A stretch of DNA of 34,911 nucleotides, taken from a virus. Positions 11,998 through 34,911 of this stretch are shown in pieces. The position numbers were made by a program, and so were the translations under genes. The notes under the pieces were generated by a model. The model was not told the DNA's origin. It ran no database searches and saw only the letters and a list, made by a program, of their open reading frames with translations. The DNA lies in the IMG/VR virus record IMGVR_UViG_3300044630_002511, positions 1 through 34,911 of that record, one strand, 5' to 3'. How positions within the stretch are numbered: position 1 is the first letter of the stretch; each line of letters starts with the position of its first letter.

Positions 11998-12633
11998 CTA
12001 TTCGTACATCACAGTGCTTGTATCTCCCAAAGCCCATTTAGGATTAGTTTCTACTACATACTTTTTTGTGCATACTTTAAAGTCCGGAAATAGCATTTCT
12101 TTTGGATTACTAGCCGCATCTAAGAATATACAACGATTGTTAGGTTGTGCTGCATACTGACCGTTTTCTAACTCAATGAAATTGAAACTTTTATGATCTT
12201 CGGGCCATTCTGCATAACTTGTATCGATAATATTCAAATCGGGCGCACTGTGATCTACTGTGAAAAGATAATTACCTTGATAAAAGTTTTTGTCTTTTGA
12301 ATAAAATTTACAACTGAGATTTCTTAAAAACGCCTTCTGTACAATTGTGAAATCATAGCTAAAGCAATCCCAAATTTGTAGTGTATCTAATTCTAAAAAC
12401 TTTGTTTTATCTAAATTAGTATTTCTACTAACAAATGCATGTAGTGGTAGTTTATCATATAACGCCCCGTAACGAGGCAAATATGCTTCAATCCTAAACG
12501 CTTGACTGCGTAAACTTTTGATACTTACCCAAATACATGGCTCATACTCACCGTGATCCTTTTGAAAATCATAAAGAAACTCACGGCGAATATAACAATG
12601 CACCGGTGGCAAATTTGCTACCAAATGAGACAT
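11998..12633 (-). CDS. Uncharacterised conserved-looking phage protein
   Basis: 211 residues without a recognised domain. Mixed alpha/beta composition, several Cys (HCYIRREF, LSCKFYS, RCIFLD, FKVCTKKY) not in a zinc pattern, no membrane segment or signal. The ATG overlaps the AhpC stop by one base (TAATG), so its translation depends on the peroxiredoxin gene, and it runs into the aldolase gene 8 bases later. Nothing in the sequence assigns a role; position suggests co-expression with the AhpC-GlyA operon. Confidence 0.7.
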   Translation of the reverse strand: MSHLVANLPPVHCYIRREFLYDFQKDHGEYEPCIWVSIKSLRSQAFRIEAYLPRYGALYDKLPLHAFVSRNTNLDKTKFLELDTLQIWDCFSYDFTIVQKAFLRNLSCKFYSKDKNFYQGNYLFTVDHSAPDLNIIDTSYAEWPEDHKSFNFIELENGQYAAQPNNRCIFLDAASNPKEMLFPDFKVCTKKYVVETNPKWALGDTSTVMYE

Positions 12634-16128: not shown

Positions 16129-16427
16129 TCGTCTTCCGCAATCGGCAGTCCATTACTGTGTTTATCTGTAGTCTTTTCAACATCTTGAAACAAACGTTTT
16201 TCTTGTGCAGTTCGTTCTTTGAATATCTTACGTGGGTTTCCGCACATCATACAACCCGGTTGTCCACAATCCATTGCATGATGTTTTGCTAAACGATGCG
16301 GTTCTTTTATTGCTTTGTCTTTGTTAGATAGACCATGCTGTTTTGCAATTTGTAATTGCTTCCTCACTGCAACTTCATCTTTATACCTGCGCTTAGAGTT
16401 TAGAAATTTTGCAAGTTCGTTAGCCAT
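16125..16427 (-). CDS. Small protein with Cys-rich CGNPRK motif
   Basis: 100 residues, strongly basic in the first half and acidic at the end. The core HHAMDCGQPGCMMCGNPRK (near 49-67) holds three Cys (C54, C59, C62) and two His that could form a zinc or Fe-S site. I recall similar CGNPR-containing small proteins in phages and bacteria but know no function. It overlaps the iscU 3' end by 8 bases and the epimerase by ATGA. Its position directly behind IscU raises the possibility that its Cys motif receives a cluster; this is inference only. Confidence 0.72.
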   Translation of the reverse strand: MANELAKFLNSKRRYKDEVAVRKQLQIAKQHGLSNKDKAIKEPHRLAKHHAMDCGQPGCMMCGNPRKIFKERTAQEKRLFQDVEKTTDKHSNGLPIAEDE

Positions 16428-16803
16428 TGTGTTTCTTTCTATAGTCTTCTACTGCTGCCTTTATGGCATCTTCGGCAAGGATCGAGCAGTGGATTTTGAC
16501 CGGGGGGAGACTGAGTTCTTCCGCGATTTGTGAGTTTCTAATTGTTGCAGCCTGGTCGAGGGTCTTTCCTTTAACCCATTCTGTGACAAGACTTGAGCTA
16601 GCAATCGCTGACCCGCACCCATACGTTTTAAATCTAGCATCTGTTATAACTCCTGTAGATTCATCTACTTTAATTTGTAATTTCATTACGTCCCCGCAAG
16701 CAGGGGCGCCGACCATTCCAGTTCCTACACTGTCGTCAATCTCAAACTTACCCACATTTCGTGGATTTTCATAGTGGTCAACTACTTGTGCGCTATAAGA
16801 CAT
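16420..16803 (-). CDS. iscU: Iron-sulfur cluster scaffold IscU
   Basis: 127 residues, the length of cellular IscU. All ligands are in place: C36 (GAPACGDVM) with D38, C63 (TYGCGSAIASSS), H105 and C106 (VKIHCSILAEDAIKAA). The HscA-chaperone recognition motif LPPVK is intact at 99-103. It should assemble [2Fe-2S] clusters with a host cysteine desulfurase and hand them on through host HscA/HscB. Shine-Dalgarno AAAGGAG lies upstream of the ATG, preceded by an ACTAAATAC box (16822-16830). No IscS, IscA or ferredoxin gene is visible nearby. Customers within the window could be the radical SAM enzyme or the adjacent Cys-motif protein. Confidence 0.95.
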   Translation of the reverse strand: MSYSAQVVDHYENPRNVGKFEIDDSVGTGMVGAPACGDVMKLQIKVDESTGVITDARFKTYGCGSAIASSSLVTEWVKGKTLDQAATIRNSQIAEELSLPPVKIHCSILAEDAIKAAVEDYRKKHNG

Positions 16804-17395: not shown

Positions 17396-18496
17396 TTAGA
17401 ATAGATTTATTTCTTCCCAAGGAAGATTTGGTTTACCAAAATGACCGTAGTTAGTGGTTTTACTATATATGGGCCTAAATAAATCAAAACGATCAATGAT
17501 ACCTTTAGGCGTCAAATCAACATTATCTTGAACCCACTTTGTCAAGTCTCGACCTTGTGCCGCATCCGCTGTTTCAATGTAAAAGCTCATAGGTTGTGCT
17601 AAGCCAATTGCATAACTAATTTGCACAGTTGCCCAATCTGCTTTGCCGCTAGCTACGATGTTCTTAGCAATGTAACGCATCATATAGGCCGCTGATCTAT
17701 CCACTTTCGTAGGATCTTTACCACTGAATGCGCCGCCACCATGAGGGCTATAACCACCGTAAGTGTCTACAATGATTTTGCGACCAGTGAGCCCAGTATC
17801 ACCATCAGGACCACCAATAACGAAACGACCAGTAGGATTAATAAAAAATTCAGTATCATTGTCTAGATATTCTCTAGGTAAGATTGCACGAATAACTTCT
17901 TTGATTGCTACACGTAATGCGTTGATATCAACATCATCAGTGTGTTGAGTAGAGCAAACAACTTTGGCAATACGTTTTGGTTTGCCGTTATCATCATATT
18001 CAAATGTTACTTGACTCTTAGCGTCAGGACCTAAGCAAGTCATCGTGCCATTCTTGCGCAATTCTGTTAGTTTTTCAACGATACGATGCGACCAATAGAT
18101 AGCACTTGGCATGTAACTCTCAGTCTCGGCGCAAGCGTATCCAAACATTAAACCCTGATCTCCTGCACCAAAGTTATCTGTACCTAAAGCAATGTCAGCA
18201 CTTTGACCGTGCAATAGGTTAGTAACTTTTAATTTTCTCCAATCGAATCCTTCTTGTTCATAGCCAATAAGTTTTACAACTCGGCGAATCGCACTATCAA
18301 CTTGAAGATCGTGTAATGCACCCTTGTACTCACCTGCGACAACAACATGATTGGTGGTAACCAATGTTTCACATGCACATCTCTGTGCAGGATCTCGGCT
18401 TTCCATAATCAAATCTAAAATAGCATCACTAATAGCGTCTGCTACTTTGTCTGGATGTCCCTCGCTCACACTTTCACTTGTAAATAAATAACTCAT
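17396..18496 (-). CDS. metK: S-adenosylmethionine synthetase
   Basis: 366 residues (E. coli MetK 384). Signature motifs: SEGHPDKVADAISDAILD near 12-29, GAGDQGLMFGYAC near 112-124, and the P-loop-like GGGAFSGKDPTKVDRSAAY near 249-267. It makes SAM from methionine and ATP. The window also encodes a radical SAM enzyme and at least four methyltransferase domains, so a phage SAM supply is coherent. Shine-Dalgarno AAGGAAA sits before the ATG, and an AGTAAATAC box lies just upstream (18512-18520). It begins 36 bases after the membrane-protein gene, so it may be transcribed both from upstream and from this box. Confidence 0.96.
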   Translation of the reverse strand: MSYLFTSESVSEGHPDKVADAISDAILDLIMESRDPAQRCACETLVTTNHVVVAGEYKGALHDLQVDSAIRRVVKLIGYEQEGFDWRKLKVTNLLHGQSADIALGTDNFGAGDQGLMFGYACAETESYMPSAIYWSHRIVEKLTELRKNGTMTCLGPDAKSQVTFEYDDNGKPKRIAKVVCSTQHTDDVDINALRVAIKEVIRAILPREYLDNDTEFFINPTGRFVIGGPDGDTGLTGRKIIVDTYGGYSPHGGGAFSGKDPTKVDRSAAYMMRYIAKNIVASGKADWATVQISYAIGLAQPMSFYIETADAAQGRDLTKWVQDNVDLTPKGIIDRFDLFRPIYSKTTNYGHFGKPNLPWEEINLF

Positions 18497-18511
18497 ACTT
18501 TTCCTTAGTGA

Positions 18512-18521
18512 AGTATTTACT
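18512..18521 (-). promoter_or_regulatory. AGTAAATAC box before metK
   Basis: Minus-strand AGTAAATAC about 15 bases before the metK ATG, with Shine-Dalgarno AAGGAAA between them. It falls in the 35-base gap between the membrane-protein gene and metK, so it could give metK a start of its own. Confidence 0.4.
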
Positions 18522-18531
18522 GATGGTTAGA

Positions 18532-18843
18532 TCACTTGAAAAATATCAATGCCATTGCAGTTGCTTGCAACAAGAAACCTACACCAATCGTAATGATGTT
18601 AAGCAAATCTCTGGTCAACACTGCTTTGAAGAACAATAAGCCAAGCGTAGTCCAAATCATCAGCACTAGATCCACTGCAGGTGGTTTATCAGTTAAGCCG
18701 GTCATTAGAGCAAAAAATGACGGGATAGTTGCACAATGTAGTGAAATGTTCGCTAGCCACCCTAGGGTTTCTGCTGACATTTTACCCAATTTGTTAGCAA
18801 AAAAGTCTTTGATATATTCTATTGTTTGAAGCATGTAGCTCAT
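18532..18843 (-). CDS. Small three-helix membrane protein, candidate holin
   Basis: 103 residues with three predicted membrane helices: about 27-49, 56-74 and 80-102, with a short amphipathic N-terminus (residues 5-22) carrying Lys residues. Size, three-TM topology and ATGA coupling to the SleB-type endolysin immediately upstream are what one expects of a class I holin. I do not recognise a named holin family, so the function is inferred from context. An alternative is a phage membrane protein unrelated to lysis. Confidence 0.68.
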   Translation of the reverse strand: MSYMLQTIEYIKDFFANKLGKMSAETLGWLANISLHCATIPSFFALMTGLTDKPPAVDLVLMIWTTLGLLFFKAVLTRDLLNIITIGVGFLLQATAMALIFFK

Positions 18844-24441: not shown

Positions 24442-25542
24442 TTAAATATTTGGTAGATCATCGTAGTTAACTGAATCACTCATTACGCCGATAACATAGT
24501 TTGTTGATTCGTTTTCTTGTAATGCTGTTTGTTTTTTGCTAGTGTCAGAATGTTTGTTGAACCATGGAATTGGAGTAGACTTTGGACTAGGATTCCAATA
24601 CTTAATACCAATTTCTTTCAATGCACTTGATGCAGTGTAATCAACAAAGTCTTTTAGAATGTTTGCATTGAGACCAATGACAGGACCGAACTTGAATAGA
24701 TAGTCTGCCCACTCTTTTTCTTCTCTGATTACATCAGTGTAAATTTGATTTACTTCTGCCTTACATTCTTCTGCAACTTTAGCAAAACGTTGATCCTCTT
24801 TAACAACTTGGTTAATCAAGTATGCAGTCCATGCTTTGTGCAACAACTCATCTTGTAAAATCAAACTAATGATGTTTCCATTACCAATGAAGATTTTGTT
24901 TTCAACCATCGCTAAACTTGTAGCAAAACTTACCATGAATCTAAATGCTTCTAATGCGTAACTAGCATGTAATGCCAAATAGATTGCTTTAATGTGTTCG
25001 TGTTCTGTTACTGCTTCGCCAATTTCTTTACGACAGTTGATAAGGTGCAAGGTATCATAGTACAAGCCAATGCTTGATGCCATACTAATGATAGGTTGTG
25101 TGTCATGTATTGTGTTGAATACATCTTTTGGTACATTGTAGATGTTACGAATGATGTGACTGTATGACTTGCTATGAATATTTGTTTCAAAGAATCCCCA
25201 GTTGTACATCAATGCTTCGACTTCAGGCAAGCTACACACAGGAGTAAACACTTGTGTAGGGCCTCGTCCTTGCAAGCTATCTAATGCTGTTTGTCGTAGT
25301 AGGTTACTAGTGAAGATGTGCTTGACGGCATCACTTGCTTCTTTGAAGTCATTGCTATCTTTTGTTAAGCTGACTTCTTCTGGTTGCCAAAAGAAACCAC
25401 GAGCAGTCGCATCGTAGTCAGCAATTTTTTTGTACTTGACTTCTTCAAATCGCTGAATTGTTACAGGACCTTCTGGATCCAAAAACATTTTACGTGATAG
25501 ATAGTCTGTCTTTTTGCTTAGGTTGTATTGTTGTTTACTCAT
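24442..25542 (-). CDS. nrdB: Ribonucleoside-diphosphate reductase small subunit (class Ia)
   Basis: 366 residues. Di-iron ligands and radical Tyr can be placed: D88 (TALDSLQG), E119 and H123 (FFETNIHSKSY), radical Tyr Y127, E199 (ALEAFRF), then E232 and H235 (LQDELLHKAW). The C-terminal YDDLPNI is the peptide that docks into the large subunit. The ATG at 25542 was chosen; the frame opens at a TTG 13 codons earlier that overlaps the SGNH gene more. One oddity: E119 and H123 are separated by three residues rather than two as in E. coli (E115/H118). It overlaps the SGNH gene by 8 bases and is separated from nrdA by that gene. Confidence 0.95.
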   Translation of the reverse strand: MSKQQYNLSKKTDYLSRKMFLDPEGPVTIQRFEEVKYKKIADYDATARGFFWQPEEVSLTKDSNDFKEASDAVKHIFTSNLLRQTALDSLQGRGPTQVFTPVCSLPEVEALMYNWGFFETNIHSKSYSHIIRNIYNVPKDVFNTIHDTQPIISMASSIGLYYDTLHLINCRKEIGEAVTEHEHIKAIYLALHASYALEAFRFMVSFATSLAMVENKIFIGNGNIISLILQDELLHKAWTAYLINQVVKEDQRFAKVAEECKAEVNQIYTDVIREEKEWADYLFKFGPVIGLNANILKDFVDYTASSALKEIGIKYWNPSPKSTPIPWFNKHSDTSKKQTALQENESTNYVIGVMSDSVNYDDLPNI

Positions 25543-26314
25543 GATTGTAGTTATTATAATATAATTTTCTAGGGCCGTCAATTTTTACATCAAAGAACCC
25601 AGTGTTATCCCACTTGCCTGTCTTGATTCGCTTGAACATCATGTTAGCAAAGAACAAGTTAAACTCAGGAACTAAATGCCCGCATAGTTTATCTGTTTCC
25701 ATTGCATTGAAGTTATCTGGGCTGATGTCAAATAAATCAAGCTGTCGTATCCACATTGTATGCATATGATTCAATGTTTTGTCTAGTTTATATTTTTTAT
25801 ATCTAGTATCGCTGAACGAGTCAGAAAAGCAAGGATAGAAAATCGTGTTAGTATTCATCGATTCCATTTTGTCCAACATTAATTCAGCCATATCGATATT
25901 GTATTGCCCATCCACTACTCTAAACCAAGCTGCAAGATCATCCAATCTTGAATTATCATTTTCTGACAATTCATCCTTCCATGTTTCTTTGAAGGAGTGC
26001 ACCTGTGATTCACAAGTAAAGGGCCAATCTCTTCCGTTATGTATCGACAGTGACAAACAGGTAGGGAACCTGTTTAAACTAGTGACTAGAAAAATGTTCA
26101 AATCATTGAGATGGGCAGACTCTGTGAATTTTTTATACGAGTAGTACAGCGATGAGCCACCCAACCCATGATGGGTGATCTTTGGCTCTATGTGTCTCAA
26201 ATCAGAATTTGAGTCATGTTTAAGTAACCATACTAATTGGTTGTACCAATTAGTAGGGACATCAAACCGTCCATTAGGTGTAGTATAACTATCACCGTAT
26301 ATGCCTATCTTCAT
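25535..26314 (-). CDS. SGNH-hydrolase-like protein
   Basis: 259 residues. Block I is clear (MKIGIYGDSYTTP), a block II-like Gly follows (GLGGSSLYYSY near 50-60), and a possible block III is at FLVTSLNRFP; a DxxH block V is not certain (CGHLVPEFN contains the best candidate His). Similar GDSY-containing proteins of unknown role are frequent in marine phages. The start is the ATG at 26314, overlapping the nrdA stop (ATGA); the TTG upstream is rejected. It interrupts nrdA and nrdB. Substrate unknown, with an acyl or acetyl ester on a glycan most likely by family. Confidence 0.72.
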   Translation of the reverse strand: MKIGIYGDSYTTPNGRFDVPTNWYNQLVWLLKHDSNSDLRHIEPKITHHGLGGSSLYYSYKKFTESAHLNDLNIFLVTSLNRFPTCLSLSIHNGRDWPFTCESQVHSFKETWKDELSENDNSRLDDLAAWFRVVDGQYNIDMAELMLDKMESMNTNTIFYPCFSDSFSDTRYKKYKLDKTLNHMHTMWIRQLDLFDISPDNFNAMETDKLCGHLVPEFNLFFANMMFKRIKTGKWDNTGFFDVKIDGPRKLYYNNYNHE

Positions 26315-28623
26315 AGCTTGCAATTCTCGCAGTCTTCTACATCGTCAAAGTCTATGACTTCCAGTGGACCCGATGTTTCTTCTGCTTTGCTACCAGCCTT
26401 ATTAATCAGCGAGTAATAGAATGTCTTAATGCCCCACATGTGAGATTGCATTAGATTCTTTGCAATTAGAGTAGTAGGTACTTTTCTATCTGCAAAGTGC
26501 GCAGGGTTGTAGAAGGTGTTAGTAGATATTGACTGGTCAACATATGCTTGAATAACTGCGGCAGTTTTCAAGTATGCATCGCAATCTTTCTGTTCCCACA
26601 TCATCTGATACTTGTTCTTCAACTTGTGATATTCAGGAACAACTTGAACGAAAGATCCTGCTTTACTTTCTTTTACGCTAATCAAACTCATTGGCATTTC
26701 AATACCATTAGTAGAATTAATTACAACACTTGACGATTCTACCGGAGCTACTGCCATTTGAGTAGCATTACGGACTCCACATGAGCGCATCATTCCACGT
26801 AGACCTTCCCAGTTAAGTTCTGGTTTAAAGTCTGCTAGTTCGTTCACGCCATTTGCTCTACGCTCCCAAGGGAAGATTCCTTGACCATACAATGTTTTAT
26901 CACTATCTACACACCTACCTCGTTCTTGTGCTAATTCAACACTAGATTCAGTCAAGTAATATGCTTGATGTTCTATCCAAGTTTTAACTTCTTGTAATGA
27001 ATCTTTCTCACCGTATTTAAGGCTACGTTTAGCATGCCAGTACGCTAAGTTTGTTATGCCAATGCCCAATGGGCGAATCTCGTCATTACTTAGTTTACTT
27101 TGAATACTCAAAAAGTCCTGATAATCGAGGATATTGTTAAGACTGCGGTGAAGAATACGGCAAGCCCTACGCATATCTTCTGGATTACGGAAAGCTCCCC
27201 AGTTAATACTACCCAATGTACATAATGCAATGCGACCATTAGGATCATCAAGACGTTTAAAAGACTTAGTAGGAAGTAGAATTTCACAACAAAGGTTACT
27301 CTGGTAAATAGTATGATACTCTGGATCAAATGGACCTTGATTCATCACGTTGTCAATGAATACTAGATAGATACGACCAGTGTCAGTGCGTTCTTTTAAG
27401 ATTCCTCCCTTAAAGACTTCTTCCGCAGACATAGTTTTTTTACGTAAATCTTTGCGTTTCTCATACTTGACATACAGTTCTTCAAACAGTTTGGTGTTAG
27501 AGTAAAAGGCTTCGTATAGATCCGGCACTTCGTTGGGATCAAAGAATGTTATGTTTTCTTTGTTTTTAAATCGTCTGAAGAAGAAGGCACTAAGCACAAC
27601 CCCATAATCCATATGACGGACTCGGGTTTCTTCTGTTCCTTGGTTGTTCTTAAGGACAATAAGATCATCAAACTGATGATGCCAAATAGGATAAAAAACT
27701 GTAGCACTAGCATTACGAATACCTCCTTGACTGCAACTACGCAGATCACCAAACCACTTTTTCAAGAAGGGTATCATGCCAGTATGCATAATTTCACCAC
27801 CGCGGATGGGACTGCCCAATGGGCGCAAACGACCTATCTCCAAACCAATGCCAGCACGTTTACTGGCATACTTTGCCATCATCTCACCGCTAGCAAATAT
27901 ACTATCCAGATCATCATCGCTCCTGATAAGCACACAACTACTAAATTGTTTTGTCGGAGTGCCAAGACCAGCAAGAACAGGTGTAGCAAGAGTAAAAAGA
28001 CCATCACTAGCAGCATTGTAATATTCCTTGATGTAACGCATTCTTGCGCTGTTGGGTTCTTCTTTATGAAACACAGTTGCTGCCGCAATCATATAACGAA
28101 CTTGAGGTGTTTCGTATGTTTGCTTCGTACTACGATTCTTTACTAGATATTTTTCAATCAGTTGCTCAATGGCGGCATAACTATAACTTTCGTCTTTAGA
28201 ATGGTCAAGAACATCATTCATCTTGTTCCAATCTTCTTCAGTATACCAGTCGAGAAGCTCACTAGTATAAAGGCCGGTGGCTACATTTGTCTTGACGATC
28301 TCGTAAAGGTGGGGAGGCTCATAGTCGCCATATACATCTTTGCGCAACATACTAAGTCGTTGCTTGCCTGCTACATATTGATAATTAGTGTGGCCTAAGT
28401 CAGGATTTGACTCTACATCAATCAAATCTACAATAGCCCTTAAGGTGATTTCATCGATTTCTTGTGTAGTGATGCCATCGTAAAAGTGTGGTTGAGCTTT
28501 GATTTCGATCATTGATTGACTTACATCAGCTATTCCTGTGCATATTTTTGCGATTTGTGCTTGCCATTTTTCAATCGTAAGTAGTTCTTTTTCACCCGAC
28601 CGTTTTATTACATATATCTTCAT
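26311..28623 (-). CDS. nrdA: Ribonucleoside-diphosphate reductase large subunit (class Ia)
   Basis: 770 residues, full length. N-terminal ATP-cone-like region (YVIKRSGEKELL, 4-15). Active-site cysteines C230 (FSSCVLI) and C468 (IALCTLGS), the N443/C445/E447 triad in SNLCCEILLP, the paired Tyr of the radical pathway in KTFYYSLI, and the C-terminal CENC that shuttles electrons from glutaredoxin. It converts NDPs to dNDPs together with NrdB. No intein or intron interrupts it. ATGA overlaps on both sides tie it to the unknown gene before and the SGNH gene after. Whether the ATP cone keeps dATP inhibition is not decidable here. Confidence 0.97.
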   Translation of the reverse strand: MKIYVIKRSGEKELLTIEKWQAQIAKICTGIADVSQSMIEIKAQPHFYDGITTQEIDEITLRAIVDLIDVESNPDLGHTNYQYVAGKQRLSMLRKDVYGDYEPPHLYEIVKTNVATGLYTSELLDWYTEEDWNKMNDVLDHSKDESYSYAAIEQLIEKYLVKNRSTKQTYETPQVRYMIAAATVFHKEEPNSARMRYIKEYYNAASDGLFTLATPVLAGLGTPTKQFSSCVLIRSDDDLDSIFASGEMMAKYASKRAGIGLEIGRLRPLGSPIRGGEIMHTGMIPFLKKWFGDLRSCSQGGIRNASATVFYPIWHHQFDDLIVLKNNQGTEETRVRHMDYGVVLSAFFFRRFKNKENITFFDPNEVPDLYEAFYSNTKLFEELYVKYEKRKDLRKKTMSAEEVFKGGILKERTDTGRIYLVFIDNVMNQGPFDPEYHTIYQSNLCCEILLPTKSFKRLDDPNGRIALCTLGSINWGAFRNPEDMRRACRILHRSLNNILDYQDFLSIQSKLSNDEIRPLGIGITNLAYWHAKRSLKYGEKDSLQEVKTWIEHQAYYLTESSVELAQERGRCVDSDKTLYGQGIFPWERRANGVNELADFKPELNWEGLRGMMRSCGVRNATQMAVAPVESSSVVINSTNGIEMPMSLISVKESKAGSFVQVVPEYHKLKNKYQMMWEQKDCDAYLKTAAVIQAYVDQSISTNTFYNPAHFADRKVPTTLIAKNLMQSHMWGIKTFYYSLINKAGSKAEETSGPLEVIDFDDVEDCENCKL

Positions 28624-30006: not shown

Positions 30007-30983
30007 AAAGACACATTATAAAACTTTTTGTAGGCATCTTCAAGCGAGCCTTTCCAATTCCAACGATCCATATGTGCATAAACGTTGTATTCGGTTATCT
30101 CTCCAAATAATGCTTGTGCTTCGGCAATACTACGTCCAGGAATGATTTCTGGATAGCAAGTAAAGAGCACAGGATTCTTAATGTGCGGGAGAACCTTCTT
30201 AAAAACAATATGGTCACCCATACCACAGTCTAAGATAACAATAGTTTGATCCTTGAAATTCATTATGTTTTGAAAGATGCGTTCGTCATGCTCAAACATA
30301 GCATGTACACCATCTCTAATGCCACCAACTTTGTTCTTCAAATGCCAAGTAATAGCATCAGGTACAACATAGTTTTTGTAACCTTTCTTAATCAAGTCAT
30401 AGGTAAACAATGTTTCTTCTCTGTGTGCGATACGTGATAGACTCAAGCAATAGTCAGCTACACCTGCTCTATATAAGAATGAACAGTGTAGGTGATCTAC
30501 TTCTTTCTTTTGATTGATTCGACCCCATTGTAAGTTAGGCTCACTGTATATATTATCAATTTTGCCGGTAGCGTTCACTTCACCCATGCTAGGTGGTGTC
30601 AATACAGACCCGCCAACTGCACCAACATTTTCTTCTGAGGTTGCATGTCTATATAATGTTTCTAACACATTACTTTCAGCAACCGTGTCATCATCTAAAC
30701 GCCACACCCACTTAAATCCCATGTGATTGGCTCGTTGGTGATTGTGATGTTGACCTTTCTTTTCAGCGTATAGCCATTCCCAAGATATTCCGCATTCACT
30801 AAGCATTTGTAACAAATAATTATAGTGTTGTATTTCACGAATATCTTTAGGTTCATCATTATCATCTTGAATGATAATGTGATCTGGTCTTTTGGTCTGT
30901 GTGATCACAGATGAAATTGCCATTGGCAATGTAGTGTCATATCTACCTTTGGTAGAAATTGAGCATAATATTTCTTTGTTCAT
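30003..30983 (-). CDS. GT2 glycosyltransferase fused to a GT9 N-terminal-like domain
   Basis: 326 residues. Residues 1-240 form a GT-A family 2 enzyme: CSISTKGRYDTTLPMAISS, the DxD metal site at D97-D99 (WRLDDDTVAES), the acidic pair in HREETLFTYDLIKKGY near 187-202. Residues 247-326 start a new domain (TIVILDCGMGDHIVFKKV, VLFTCYPEIIPG, VYAHMDRW) that looks like the beginning of a GT9 heptosyltransferase (GxGD...P). The remaining GT9 part is a separate gene at 29066-29518. The ATG at 30983 overlaps the previous stop (ATGA); the TTG upstream is rejected. Confidence 0.8.
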   Translation of the reverse strand: MNKEILCSISTKGRYDTTLPMAISSVITQTKRPDHIIIQDDNDEPKDIREIQHYNYLLQMLSECGISWEWLYAEKKGQHHNHQRANHMGFKWVWRLDDDTVAESNVLETLYRHATSEENVGAVGGSVLTPPSMGEVNATGKIDNIYSEPNLQWGRINQKKEVDHLHCSFLYRAGVADYCLSLSRIAHREETLFTYDLIKKGYKNYVVPDAITWHLKNKVGGIRDGVHAMFEHDERIFQNIMNFKDQTIVILDCGMGDHIVFKKVLPHIKNPVLFTCYPEIIPGRSIAEAQALFGEITEYNVYAHMDRWNWKGSLEDAYKKFYNVSL

Positions 30984-32971
30984 TTTTTCCAATGTTGATT
31001 AACGAAGGGTGCTTCACGATAATTGACTGGCTGTCCATTAGCGTCCCAATCCCAATAATAAATTTGCACAGAATCTAGTCTAGTGAATCCAAACTCAATT
31101 AACTTCTGTTCAAGAATATCTTTTCCTTTATGCTTAGGATGCAAGTCAGTATGTATCTCTAGCATAATTTCATTGATGCGAACCATATCTTTTTCGTCAG
31201 CATTCATGATAACATCATATTCTCCGCCCTCACAGTCAAGCTTTAATAGAATATCATGCCCTGCAATTTGACCCATGAGTTGAGAGAATGTAGCAGTTTC
31301 GACAACTTCATAGTTATCAGATACATTATACATGCTGTTTGCACCTGCGTTAGAGTTAAGACTTACTGGTAAAAACTCATTACCTTTTTCTGCTATGATT
31401 CGTTTGTGAGTTGTTATATTCTTCATTTGCATTCTATGAATGTTACGTAAGAAAGTATTGTAGGATGCGCTAATTGGTTCAACTGATATAACTTGCTTTG
31501 CACCTAGTGCGGCTGCATACAATGAGAATGCACCAATGTTTGCACCAATGTCAACTACTAGTCTATCTTTAACTTTTTCTTTAGTTAAGTGATATTGGTT
31601 AGCCTCAATAACTTCACGATACATTGCAGGGTCTTGTTCATTCAAAAATTTTAATGATTCTTCAATTGTTATTTCTTCTTTATCCCATATACATAACATC
31701 AGATTGATGTTCTCTTTATCTCCGCGATTGTGAGGCGTGTCACGTAATGTGCCGTCGGGTGCAATAAACTTGAACTTAAATCCAGGGAAGAAAGACTCAT
31801 CTAGATTGTGTATCTTGTGATGCGGGCCCCATAGTCCAGGTGTTTCGAGCATAGGGACAGTAATCATTAAACGTTTACAGTGCTTCTTTAGTTTTTCCAC
31901 GATTGCCAATCCATTATCTAAGTGTTCGATAACTTCAAACGCTATGATAGTATCATATTGGCCCAATTCATACGTGTTGATATCACCGTGTACGAACGTA
32001 ACATTATCACGCCATTGTTGGTCACGTGCTACTGGGATGATGCGCTTATCATAGTCTAGTCCAGTATACTCAATACCCTCAGGTAAGAACTGTAATCCGT
32101 ATCCACTAGAGCAACCTAACTCAAACACATTGTTTCCTAGAATGTTTTGTGCGGCCCAACTGTAGCGTGTAATTTCACGTGGCGCAATCTCATCACCTTT
32201 AAAGAACACAGCACGTTCCCAATAGTTACTTAGTCGCCACTGATACCAATGTGGGTTGTACTTTCTAGCAAGAGTCAATGAATTTGTTAGGAAGATATCT
32301 TCCCATTCAGGAACAAGTTCTTTGTCATGCACAGTGCCTTCACCTAAATGATAGATAGGGAAGTCACCGCAATACATGCCAACCGCTGCATTCCATTCTT
32401 TATCCACACACTCAAGTACTTGGAAACCGGCTCGTTCGCATTCAATACTAAACTCAGTATCTTCTCCACCGCCTGCACCATAGTCTAAACTCAATAATCC
32501 AATCTTGTCAAATACTCTACGATGGATCATTACACAGAAGAAGATAGCAAAGTCATGACCGGCTGGTTCTGATTCACTCTTAATCAAACAACTGATACCT
32601 GCTTTTTCGTTACCTATAAACACTGACTCTAATTGTGTTAGCCAACGATTCTTTTCTTGTGGCAACAACACAGTGTCATTGTTTAATAGTACAATTAGGT
32701 CAGTAGTTGCAACTTCAATACCTGCGTTACATGCTCGTGAATATCCTAAAGCTGCATCGTTCCAAACAACTTTTAAGTTTTCGCTTATGCCCAACAATGC
32801 ATAATGACTTTGAAGTTCAGTTACATATGCTAATGTTTCGTCTTTGCACCCATTTGCGCTTATGATAAGTTCGATGTTGGTTACATCTGTGTACTTGAAT
32901 ATTGATTCGACACATGGCTTTAGTAAATCATTACAATGATTGTATGTGGGTATGACTATGCTATATTTCAT
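30980..32971 (-). CDS. GT2 glycosyltransferase - methyltransferase - FkbM methyltransferase fusion
   Basis: 663 residues in three domains. 1-245: GT2, opening SIVIPTYNHCNDLLKPC, metal site in LLNNDT near 95-100 and a GGGEDTEFSIECERAG segment near 167-182. 265-430: class I methyltransferase with FELGCSSGYG (283-292), LDYD (305-308) and FEVIEHLDNG (345-354). 465-663: FkbM-type methyltransferase with VVDIGANIGAFSLY (472-485), SVEPISASYN (496-505) and KLDCEGGEYD (577-586). It probably adds a sugar and methylates the product at two positions. The ATG at 32971 has Shine-Dalgarno AAAGG; the longer TTG frame overlaps the paralogue upstream and is rejected. Confidence 0.9.
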   Translation of the reverse strand: MKYSIVIPTYNHCNDLLKPCVESIFKYTDVTNIELIISANGCKDETLAYVTELQSHYALLGISENLKVVWNDAALGYSRACNAGIEVATTDLIVLLNNDTVLLPQEKNRWLTQLESVFIGNEKAGISCLIKSESEPAGHDFAIFFCVMIHRRVFDKIGLLSLDYGAGGGEDTEFSIECERAGFQVLECVDKEWNAAVGMYCGDFPIYHLGEGTVHDKELVPEWEDIFLTNSLTLARKYNPHWYQWRLSNYWERAVFFKGDEIAPREITRYSWAAQNILGNNVFELGCSSGYGLQFLPEGIEYTGLDYDKRIIPVARDQQWRDNVTFVHGDINTYELGQYDTIIAFEVIEHLDNGLAIVEKLKKHCKRLMITVPMLETPGLWGPHHKIHNLDESFFPGFKFKFIAPDGTLRDTPHNRGDKENINLMLCIWDKEEITIEESLKFLNEQDPAMYREVIEANQYHLTKEKVKDRLVVDIGANIGAFSLYAAALGAKQVISVEPISASYNTFLRNIHRMQMKNITTHKRIIAEKGNEFLPVSLNSNAGANSMYNVSDNYEVVETATFSQLMGQIAGHDILLKLDCEGGEYDVIMNADEKDMVRINEIMLEIHTDLHPKHKGKDILEQKLIEFGFTRLDSVQIYYWDWDANGQPVNYREAPFVNQHWKK

Positions 32972-32979
32972 TTTTACCT

Positions 32980-33732
32980 TTAGACTGTATGTTTGTAGGC
33001 TTCGTACCAAGCCATGTTGTATTTTTGTGCTAGCTTCAATTCGTTGATTCTGAATGTGCGCTCCCAATCACTGACTAGTTCAGGATTGTGTACTGTGCCT
33101 TCGCCTTGATGCCATAATGGGAATGTTCCTACATGTATATTAGCTTCGTTGCTCCATACTAGGGGAACAGGTTGAACTACCTCATACCCTAAAAGCTGTG
33201 CGGCTGCACAGAAGTCAATATCTTCGTTGCCACCCTTTTCATAACGCTCATCCAAGTAACCTACTTTGTTCAGTACTTCTCTAGGGAACATCACACAGAA
33301 GAATACGCCAAAGTCCATGTTAGTAATAGGGGAATGTTTCTTTAATGAGCAAGAGATACCGCATTTGGGATTATCTTCGAATGCACTATTTAATAGTCGT
33401 AGCCAATCACCCCTGTGCTGACCAAGAAGAATAGCATCATTGTTTAGCATGACAAGTTTGTCACAAGTTGATACACGAATTCCGGCGTTTGTTGCTCTTG
33501 CGTATCCAAGCGCATCTTTATTCCATACAATCTTTAAGTGGTCTGATAGACCTAGATAGTCAAAGCTAGCTTTTAGTTTGTCCAAATATTCAGATGTGTT
33601 GTCTGTGCAACCATTGGCACTTATAATAAGTTCAATGTCAGTTAGATGAGAGTATTTTAACAGTGCTTCTATACACGGTTTTAAGAATTTGTCGCAATTG
33701 TTGTAGGTAGGTATAACGATACTATATTTCAT
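32980..33732 (-). CDS. GT2 glycosyltransferase, paralogue of the next gene
   Basis: 250-residue single-domain family 2 glycosyltransferase. It begins SIVIPTYNNCDKFLKPC, has the metal-site strand VMLNNDAILL near 94-103, and KGGNEDIDFCAAAQLLGYE near 166-184 as the catalytic-base region; HQGEGTVHNPELVSDWER ends the domain. It aligns nearly end to end with residues 1-245 of the downstream fusion protein, so the two arose by tandem duplication. Its ribosome-binding site and start codon form the 3' arm of a perfect 17-bp hairpin that begins right after the fibre-gene stop. This implies that its translation is switched. Confidence 0.9.
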   Translation of the reverse strand: MKYSIVIPTYNNCDKFLKPCIEALLKYSHLTDIELIISANGCTDNTSEYLDKLKASFDYLGLSDHLKIVWNKDALGYARATNAGIRVSTCDKLVMLNNDAILLGQHRGDWLRLLNSAFEDNPKCGISCSLKKHSPITNMDFGVFFCVMFPREVLNKVGYLDERYEKGGNEDIDFCAAAQLLGYEVVQPVPLVWSNEANIHVGTFPLWHQGEGTVHNPELVSDWERTFRINELKLAQKYNMAWYEAYKHTV

Positions 33733-33779
33733 TTAATGTCCCTTCTACTATATATGACTTTATAGAAGGGACATTAAAT
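33731..33779 (-). promoter_or_regulatory. Perfect 17-bp hairpin sequestering the GT2 ribosome-binding site
   Basis: On the minus strand ATTTAATGTCCCTTCTA (33779 to 33763), a 15-base loop, then TAGAAGGGACATTAAAT (33747 to 33731). The 3' arm contains the Shine-Dalgarno GAAGGGA (33745-33739), and its last two bases are the AT of the start codon at 33732. The 5' arm begins one base after the fibre-gene TAA. No U-run follows, so it is a translation switch rather than a simple terminator. Confidence 0.75.
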
Positions 33780-33780
33780 T

Positions 33781-34911
33781 TTATGCGTAAGTAGCGTTCA
33801 ATGTATACCAGTTTGTAGCATTCATCGCAATAAATTCTACACATCCACCAACTGGTAGTGAGTAAGCAACGTTAACTGCGGCAGCATTGATAGAATCTGA
33901 TGTATTTGGATACACGCTCAGTGCATTTGCGCCGCCGTTTCTCACAATAACCCGTAACCCTGCGTCTGCTGTCGGTAGTAAAACACCAGTACTTGCACCA
34001 ACTGTGGTAACGTTGTTGATAGCTGTTACTATAACAGTAGCTGTACCTTGAGTAGCTCCGGCAGCGGTTATTGCATCAGTTGTACCAAAATCAAAATAAG
34101 TAGAACTTAACACTCCGGTACTAGCATTAAAAGTTAATCTAGTAGTGGTAGCTTTTGCTGTTTGATTAGAACCAGTAGCACCAACCATGACAGGATATAA
34201 TGCAGCAGTTGCTACATCTTGTGCCGCATTAATTGTAGTGCTAGGACCTGCTTGTCCTGAAGTTCCACTCCAACCTGAAGTTCCACTCCAACCTGATCTA
34301 CCACTTGCCCCACTCCAACCTGAAGTTCCACTCCAACCTGAAGTTCCACTCCAACCTGATCTACCACTTGCCCCACTCCAACCTGATGTTCCGCTGATGC
34401 CTGACACGCCTGACCATCCACTTGTACCACTGATACCTGATGTTCCGCTTATACCTGTTGTACCTGACCATCCACTTGTACCACTGATACCTGATGTTCC
34501 GCTTATACCCGATGTACCACTGATACCAGTAGTACCACTCCAGCCTGATGTACCACTAAAGCCTGATCTTCCACTGATACCAGTAGTACCTGAGATACCT
34601 GAGGTACCACTAACACCCGAAATACCTGTAGTACCTGACCAACCTGATGTTCCACTAAAGCCTGATGTACCACTGACACCAGTAGTACCACTATATCCAC
34701 TTACACCGGTTATGCCGCTAAAGCCTGATATACCACTAAAGCCTGATCTTCCACTGATACCAGTAGTACCTGACTGTCCACTAACACCTGATGTACCTGA
34801 AGTTCCACTGAATCCTGATGTACCACTAAATCCACTAGTACCTGATAATCCAGATGTACCAGATGTACCTGAAGTTCCACTGAATCCACTAGTACCTGAT
34901 AATCCAGAGGT
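33781..34911 (-). CDS. Collagen-like repeat fibre protein (5' end beyond the window)
   Basis: The reading frame is open from the right edge to the TAA at 33781, giving 376 visible residues; I checked every codon from 34408 to 34911 and found no stop, so the GTG-initiated 208-residue version is only a fragment. About 220 residues are Gly-x-Ser/Thr triplets ([24 protein letters not shown]) lacking Pro except at the end, a phage collagen-like stalk. The last ~150 residues (from [14 protein letters not shown]) form a Thr/Ala/Val-rich beta domain ending [10 protein letters not shown], probably the receptor-facing or trimerising head. Likely a tail or capsid fibre. Directly precedes the glycosyltransferase operon. 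Confidence 0.85.
34244..34911 (-). repeat. Collagen-like 9/18-bp periodic repeats
   Basis: Coding repeats of Gly-x-Ser/Thr triplets with an 18-base (6-residue) higher period, running to the window edge. Third positions vary between units, except in the locally identical block at 34256-34381. Confidence 0.85.
34256..34381. repeat. Perfect 63-bp tandem duplication in the fibre gene
   Basis: Bases 34256-34318 and 34319-34381 are identical: two CCTGAAGTTCCACTCCAA units, one CCTGATCTACCACTTGCC and a 9-base piece. It is in frame (21 residues). Exact identity in a degenerate repeat array indicates recent expansion by slippage or recombination. Confidence 0.9.

Follow-up and report, generated by a model that had tools for sequence, protein, structure and literature searches.

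A covarying hairpin over the ribosome-binding site of a glycosyltransferase gene in uncultured T4-type phages, with a candidate late promoter in its loop

Long transcripts of bacteriophage T4 gene e form a structure whose 5' part is missing from late transcripts, and the late ones are translated; soc and gene 49 appear beside e and I-TevI in a list of genes whose start sites carry an inhibitory RNA structure (PMC3014915). The T4 genes I-TevI, I-TevII, I-TevIII and segB, and mobE of phage Aeh1, likewise combine a hairpin that sequesters the ribosome-binding site (RBS) with a late promoter (PMC2988022). When folded in the same way as the locus described here, T4 gene e carries its Shine-Dalgarno (SD) sequence in the 3' arm and TATAAATA in the loop, 13 nt upstream of the ATG, and T4 soc forms a hairpin over its SD. 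Our locus resembles gene e in having the RBS in the 3' arm and a candidate late box in the loop, unlike soc, whose canonical box lies upstream of the stem, 29 nt before the ATG. It differs from gene e in its longer stem (17–18 bp), in its off-consensus box, CATATATA, in the gene that it precedes, which encodes a glycosyltransferase (GT), and in its upstream gene, which is probably late rather than early or middle.

The locus lies on the minus strand of a viral record from IMG/VR (IMGVR_UViG_3300044630_002511), analysed over a stretch of 34,911 nt that we call the window. The 3' part of a collagen-repeat tail-fibre-like gene (33781..34911) is followed by the first GT gene (32980..33732), which encodes a 250-aa protein of the GT2 family (Pfam PF00535, E=7.7e-17; PHROGs). 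Its ATG, 48 nt from the fibre stop, is the correct start codon, since translation from it yields MKYSIVIPTYN, the N-terminus conserved in GT2 proteins. Next comes a second GT gene fused to methyltransferase domains (30980..33067, minus strand; the ORF starts at 33067, and homology to the first GT begins at about 32973). This second gene is a tandem copy, with 74% DNA identity between 32840–32973 and the start of the first GT, and its two fused domains are Methyltransf_23 and FkbM. From the gene order one might speculate that these enzymes modify the Ser/Thr-rich collagen-like fibre. Elsewhere the window holds ferredoxin-like, NifU-like and class Ia ribonucleotide reductase subunit genes (11998–12633, 16420–16803, 24442–25581 and 26311–28623).

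Between the fibre and the first GT, the minus strand encodes a hairpin of 17 perfect pairs plus one U.G pair. Its 5' arm, ATTTAATGTCCCTTCTA (33779–33763), begins one base (A, 33780) past the fibre stop codon TAA (33783–33781). A 15-nt loop (33762–33748), whose end bases 33762 and 33748 are able to form the extra U.G pair, leads to the 3' arm, TAGAAGGGACATTAAAT (33747–33731). This arm holds the SD region as read from the sequence, AGAAGGGA (33746–33739), which is predicted to be paired in long RNA, and the AU of the GT AUG (33732–33731). Sequence and folding thus confirmed the perfect 17-bp stem over the SD and start codon that a first-pass annotation of this DNA had pointed out. The 121-nt hairpin region has a minimum free energy of −32.7 kcal/mol (z = −5.2), and none of 200 shuffles was as good. 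Among perfect stems with loops of 3–25 nt it is the longest in the 34.9-kb window, at 17 bp against 11 bp for the runner-up; the maximum in 30 first-order Markov sequences of window length was 12 bp, and a 17-bp stem is far beyond chance. A search of Rfam returned no family above its gathering score, the only match being mir-3914 (27 bits against a gathering score of 97). A sigma-70 promoter in the hairpin region was also considered and set aside, the promoter matches there being at chance level only.

We found relatives of the GT on 20 viral contigs, all but one at 76–95% identity; a further scan brought in more distant ones, with identities of about 60% or less. The GT had no tblastn match among 50,697 GenBank phage records, and neither DNA nor protein comparison revealed a relative among GenBank phages. 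Uncompensated loss of pairing in close relatives was the observation that the first-pass annotation had named as fatal to its proposal; instead, pairing is kept by compensatory changes. As counted in five ungapped close leaders, 7 of 19 pairs have changed on both sides, 97.9% of cells are paired, and none of 500 shuffles matched this; with the partner slid by one base, pairing in these leaders fell to about 50%. Across 15 distinct hairpins, arms folded with their own partners gave a summed energy of −288 kcal/mol, against −161 kcal/mol (sd 19) for swapped arms, and 0 of 20,000 permutations did as well. These substitution patterns indicate that the stem is maintained by selection on pairing, and since the SD always lies in the 3' arm, the pairing is very probably selected in RNA. 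As in the genes grouped with e, soc and I-TevI, then, predicted structure and covariation place the SD and start codon in a paired state in read-through RNA. The bare loop sequence, searched for in viral contigs, turned up mostly in unrelated places; the hairpin occurred at GT orthologs only.

The gene in front of the hairpin is less constant. L004 and L009 have the same hairpin, preceded by an 87-aa ORF in L004 and by a fibre gene in L009, and in L013 the upstream gene is a 208-aa ORF; judged from these arrangements, the hairpin travels with the GT, not with the fibre. This speaks against a role mainly in the upstream mRNA, as a 3'-end stabiliser, an RNase III site or a terminator of the fibre unit, with burial of the RBS as a by-product. 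Such a role would suit a stem of 17–18 bp directly behind the fibre stop, but not a hairpin that stands behind unrelated genes, moves with the GT and always has the SD in its 3' arm. Moreover, the hairpin lacks the G+C-rich stem with U-tract of an intrinsic terminator, the U-tract being absent, and the region contains no terminator-like match. We regard this explanation as very unlikely. As a separate observation, L004, L009, L011 and L012 share one hairpin behind differing upstream genes, which suggests that the GT and its leader have been exchanged by recombination.

In one of two switch models of the first-pass annotation, a ribosome that finishes the fibre gene covers the 5' arm and unfolds the stem, which would couple translation of the GT to that of the fibre. 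The stem does begin one base past the fibre stop in the window and in most close relatives, as coupling of this kind would have it. A ribosome at a stop codon covers roughly 9 nt beyond it. With those 9 nt masked, however, the window keeps a hairpin of −13.0 kcal/mol with the SD paired, so that a ribosome at the upstream stop would not free the SD. The geometry is not conserved either: the 5' arm lies 12–21 nt past the stop in L004, L009 and L013; the masked stretch misses the stem in L004 and L013; and the upstream gene or its distance differs in L004 (87-aa ORF), L013 (208-aa ORF) and L044–L048 (terminator). The 48 nt between the fibre stop and the GT ATG also count against coupling. These results disfavour the model, which we consider very improbable.

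The other model, of the T4 e/soc type, calls for late transcription as in T4, and the phages are of that type: Gp23 passed the cut-off in 4 of 20 records and in 9 of 16, many of them fragments. A gp55-like protein (phrog_234 match) is encoded in G024 and G029, of which G024 carries this GT hairpin; the window record is itself a fragment. Among 7-mers in front of genes, ATAAATA shows the strongest enrichment, 40 vs 2.7 overall and 36 vs 1.15 at 12–26 nt upstream. Both a gp55-like protein and TATAAATA-like boxes, the marks of T4-type late transcription, are thus present in relatives. Paired SDs were found in 18 of 74 late-box genes vs 29 of 300, an excess that is partly due to the GT orthologs themselves and hence is no independent proof. 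A cyanophage context was considered and dropped, a psbA-type gene being absent from 9 relatives. Within the window, the region upstream (18497–18556) of a phrog_1569 gene (17396–18496) has a late-type box, GTAAATAC, which sits within a short inverted repeat (AAGTGA...TCACTT) that recurs in phrog_1569 orthologs.

In an alignment of the 15 distinct hairpins, TxATAxxTA is invariant in the loop, 15–17 nt before the ATG; the box-to-ATG distance of the group's other late-type boxes peaks at 16–19 nt. The window's version, a candidate T4-type late promoter element, is CATATATA (33756–33749, minus strand), common to its group, while other relatives have CATAAGTA and one has AATAAGTA. A pure silencer would let the loop drift. 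CATATATA is a single deviation from NATAAATA; the listed late promoters of T4 include single deviations, and the use of variants is documented in vitro at least (PMC2988020). In G030, one fibre-family gene has ATAAGTA where its homologs have ATAAATA, a hint that the ATAAGTA variant may work as a late box. The late-promoter matrix of the group gives CATATATA and CATAAGTA about 0–2 bits, which 2–4% of all positions reach, and the canonical ATAAATA is present in no GT ortholog.

Such poor scores would suit a silencer without an internal promoter, opened by a phage RNA-binding protein, by an RNase cut in the loop or by temperature. The loop would then be a protein or RNase site, and an RNA-binding site would also explain its conserved sequence; the strong, covarying stem fits this account as well. 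Against it, the conserved loop resembles a late TATA-type box at late-promoter spacing, and canonical boxes occupy such loops at HNH genes of the same phages. There, stems surround 4 of 52 canonical ATAAATA boxes, against 0.65 expected and a maximum of 3 in 40 shuffles; in three of these four cases the gene that follows is HNH endonuclease-like. Two of these genes match Pfam HNH (L030, G005:26837, and L206, G024:12974, both minus strand), and the third has an HHILP motif recognised by eye and no Pfam match (L031, G005:56596, minus strand). A further RBS hairpin with canonical ATAAATA in its loop, before a Pfam HNH gene, was found apart from the four-stem scan (L027, G012:62321, plus strand). 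These uncultured T4-type phages thus have an arrangement like that of T4 and Aeh1 at their HNH genes. The GT locus probably shares the device with the T4 and Aeh1 homing endonucleases. Its gene differs in kind from theirs, since the GT is no mobile endonuclease and stands first in a cluster of glycosyltransferase and methyltransferase genes.

The next kin of the close group bear on the promoter in another way. In L044–L048 the GT ATG is preceded by an intrinsic terminator, AAGCGCACTTCGGTGCGCTTTTTT, whose end lies about 60 nt away; this terminator was identified by eye and by folding, and a pattern scan of L047 listed none. With a terminator upstream, the promoter in these contigs should lie within the hairpin segment, which again counts against a silencer that has no promoter inside; we consider that alternative unlikely. 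The hairpin is weaker here, at about −14 kcal/mol in L044 and L047 (−14.6 and −13.8), and nearly gone in L048 (−5.8 kcal/mol), which would fit a stem that serves to silence read-through, a point that rests on this one clade. Two features here weigh against a silencer with a promoter in its loop: the near loss of the stem in L048 and, in L044–L047, another candidate box, TATAAATT, located at the base of the 5' arm. Regarding gene content, a strong terminator at about 60 nt ahead of the GT is seen in L051 as well as in L044–L048; the gene ahead of the GT appears to be gp23 in L044–L046, L048 and L051, and in L047 an HNH-like gene and an ORF of 138 aa lie in between. A loop-type box before gp23 was examined as possible further support and discarded: at the spacing that CATATATAGGAGA has in G012, the SD would not be transcribed, and no such box precedes other gp23 genes.

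Taken with the covariation, the conserved loop box at late spacing and the HNH genes, the T4 e/soc/I-TevI-type model is the better supported of the two switch models. What the first-pass annotation had proposed holds for burial of the RBS and the analogy to T4, but not for the promoter it named: TATAAAGT does lie at 33764–33757, but it is absent from the relatives and its matrix score is at best 0.7; the conserved CATATATA/CATAAGTA box lies immediately downstream.

On balance, the mechanism that we consider probable is translational silencing of the T4 type, with a promoter located within the silencing hairpin. Read-through mRNA from the fibre gene would fold into the 17–18 bp hairpin, hiding the SD and start codon, and the GT would go untranslated from this message. 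A phage-modified RNA polymerase would start a second mRNA at the loop box (33756–33749). Placing +1 at the start distance of T4 late promoters, this RNA would begin near 33743 with a predicted 11-nt leader, AGGGACATTAA (33743–33733, minus strand), without the 5' arm and with the SD at its 5' end, and would be translated. Across the relatives the predicted leaders measure 10–12 nt, and all 15 begin with a purine run that resembles an SD. Folding puts the cost of exposing the RBS at 22.8 kcal/mol in the long RNA and at 0.5 kcal/mol in an RNA that starts 6 nt past the box.

The fibre gene upstream is itself probably late, since ATAAATA precedes its orthologs, and with late boxes there the early/late logic of T4 gene e does not apply directly. 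Simple early silencing is unlikely as the purpose of the hairpin. With the silencer and its internal promoter as proposed, the GT's own, probably weak, late promoter would determine GT output, independently of the fibre message. In T4 the device is known to keep late genes silent on early and middle messages. Tentatively, the hairpin and promoter together might here act as an insulator between two late units, so that the fibre message yields no modifying enzyme and a weak late promoter of the enzyme's own is its sole source; of the possible purposes we find this the likeliest, though as a possibility it is rather less likely than not to hold.

Reviews describe this control device for homing endonucleases and for T4 lysozyme, Soc and gene 49. 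The present findings, backed by covariation, probably extend it to a cluster of glycosyltransferase genes; the T4-type phages that carry the cluster are known here from metagenomes only. The twist compared with the known cases is that the device sits behind a structural gene that is itself probably late. In phages without transcript data, RBS hairpins of this kind may point to late promoters.
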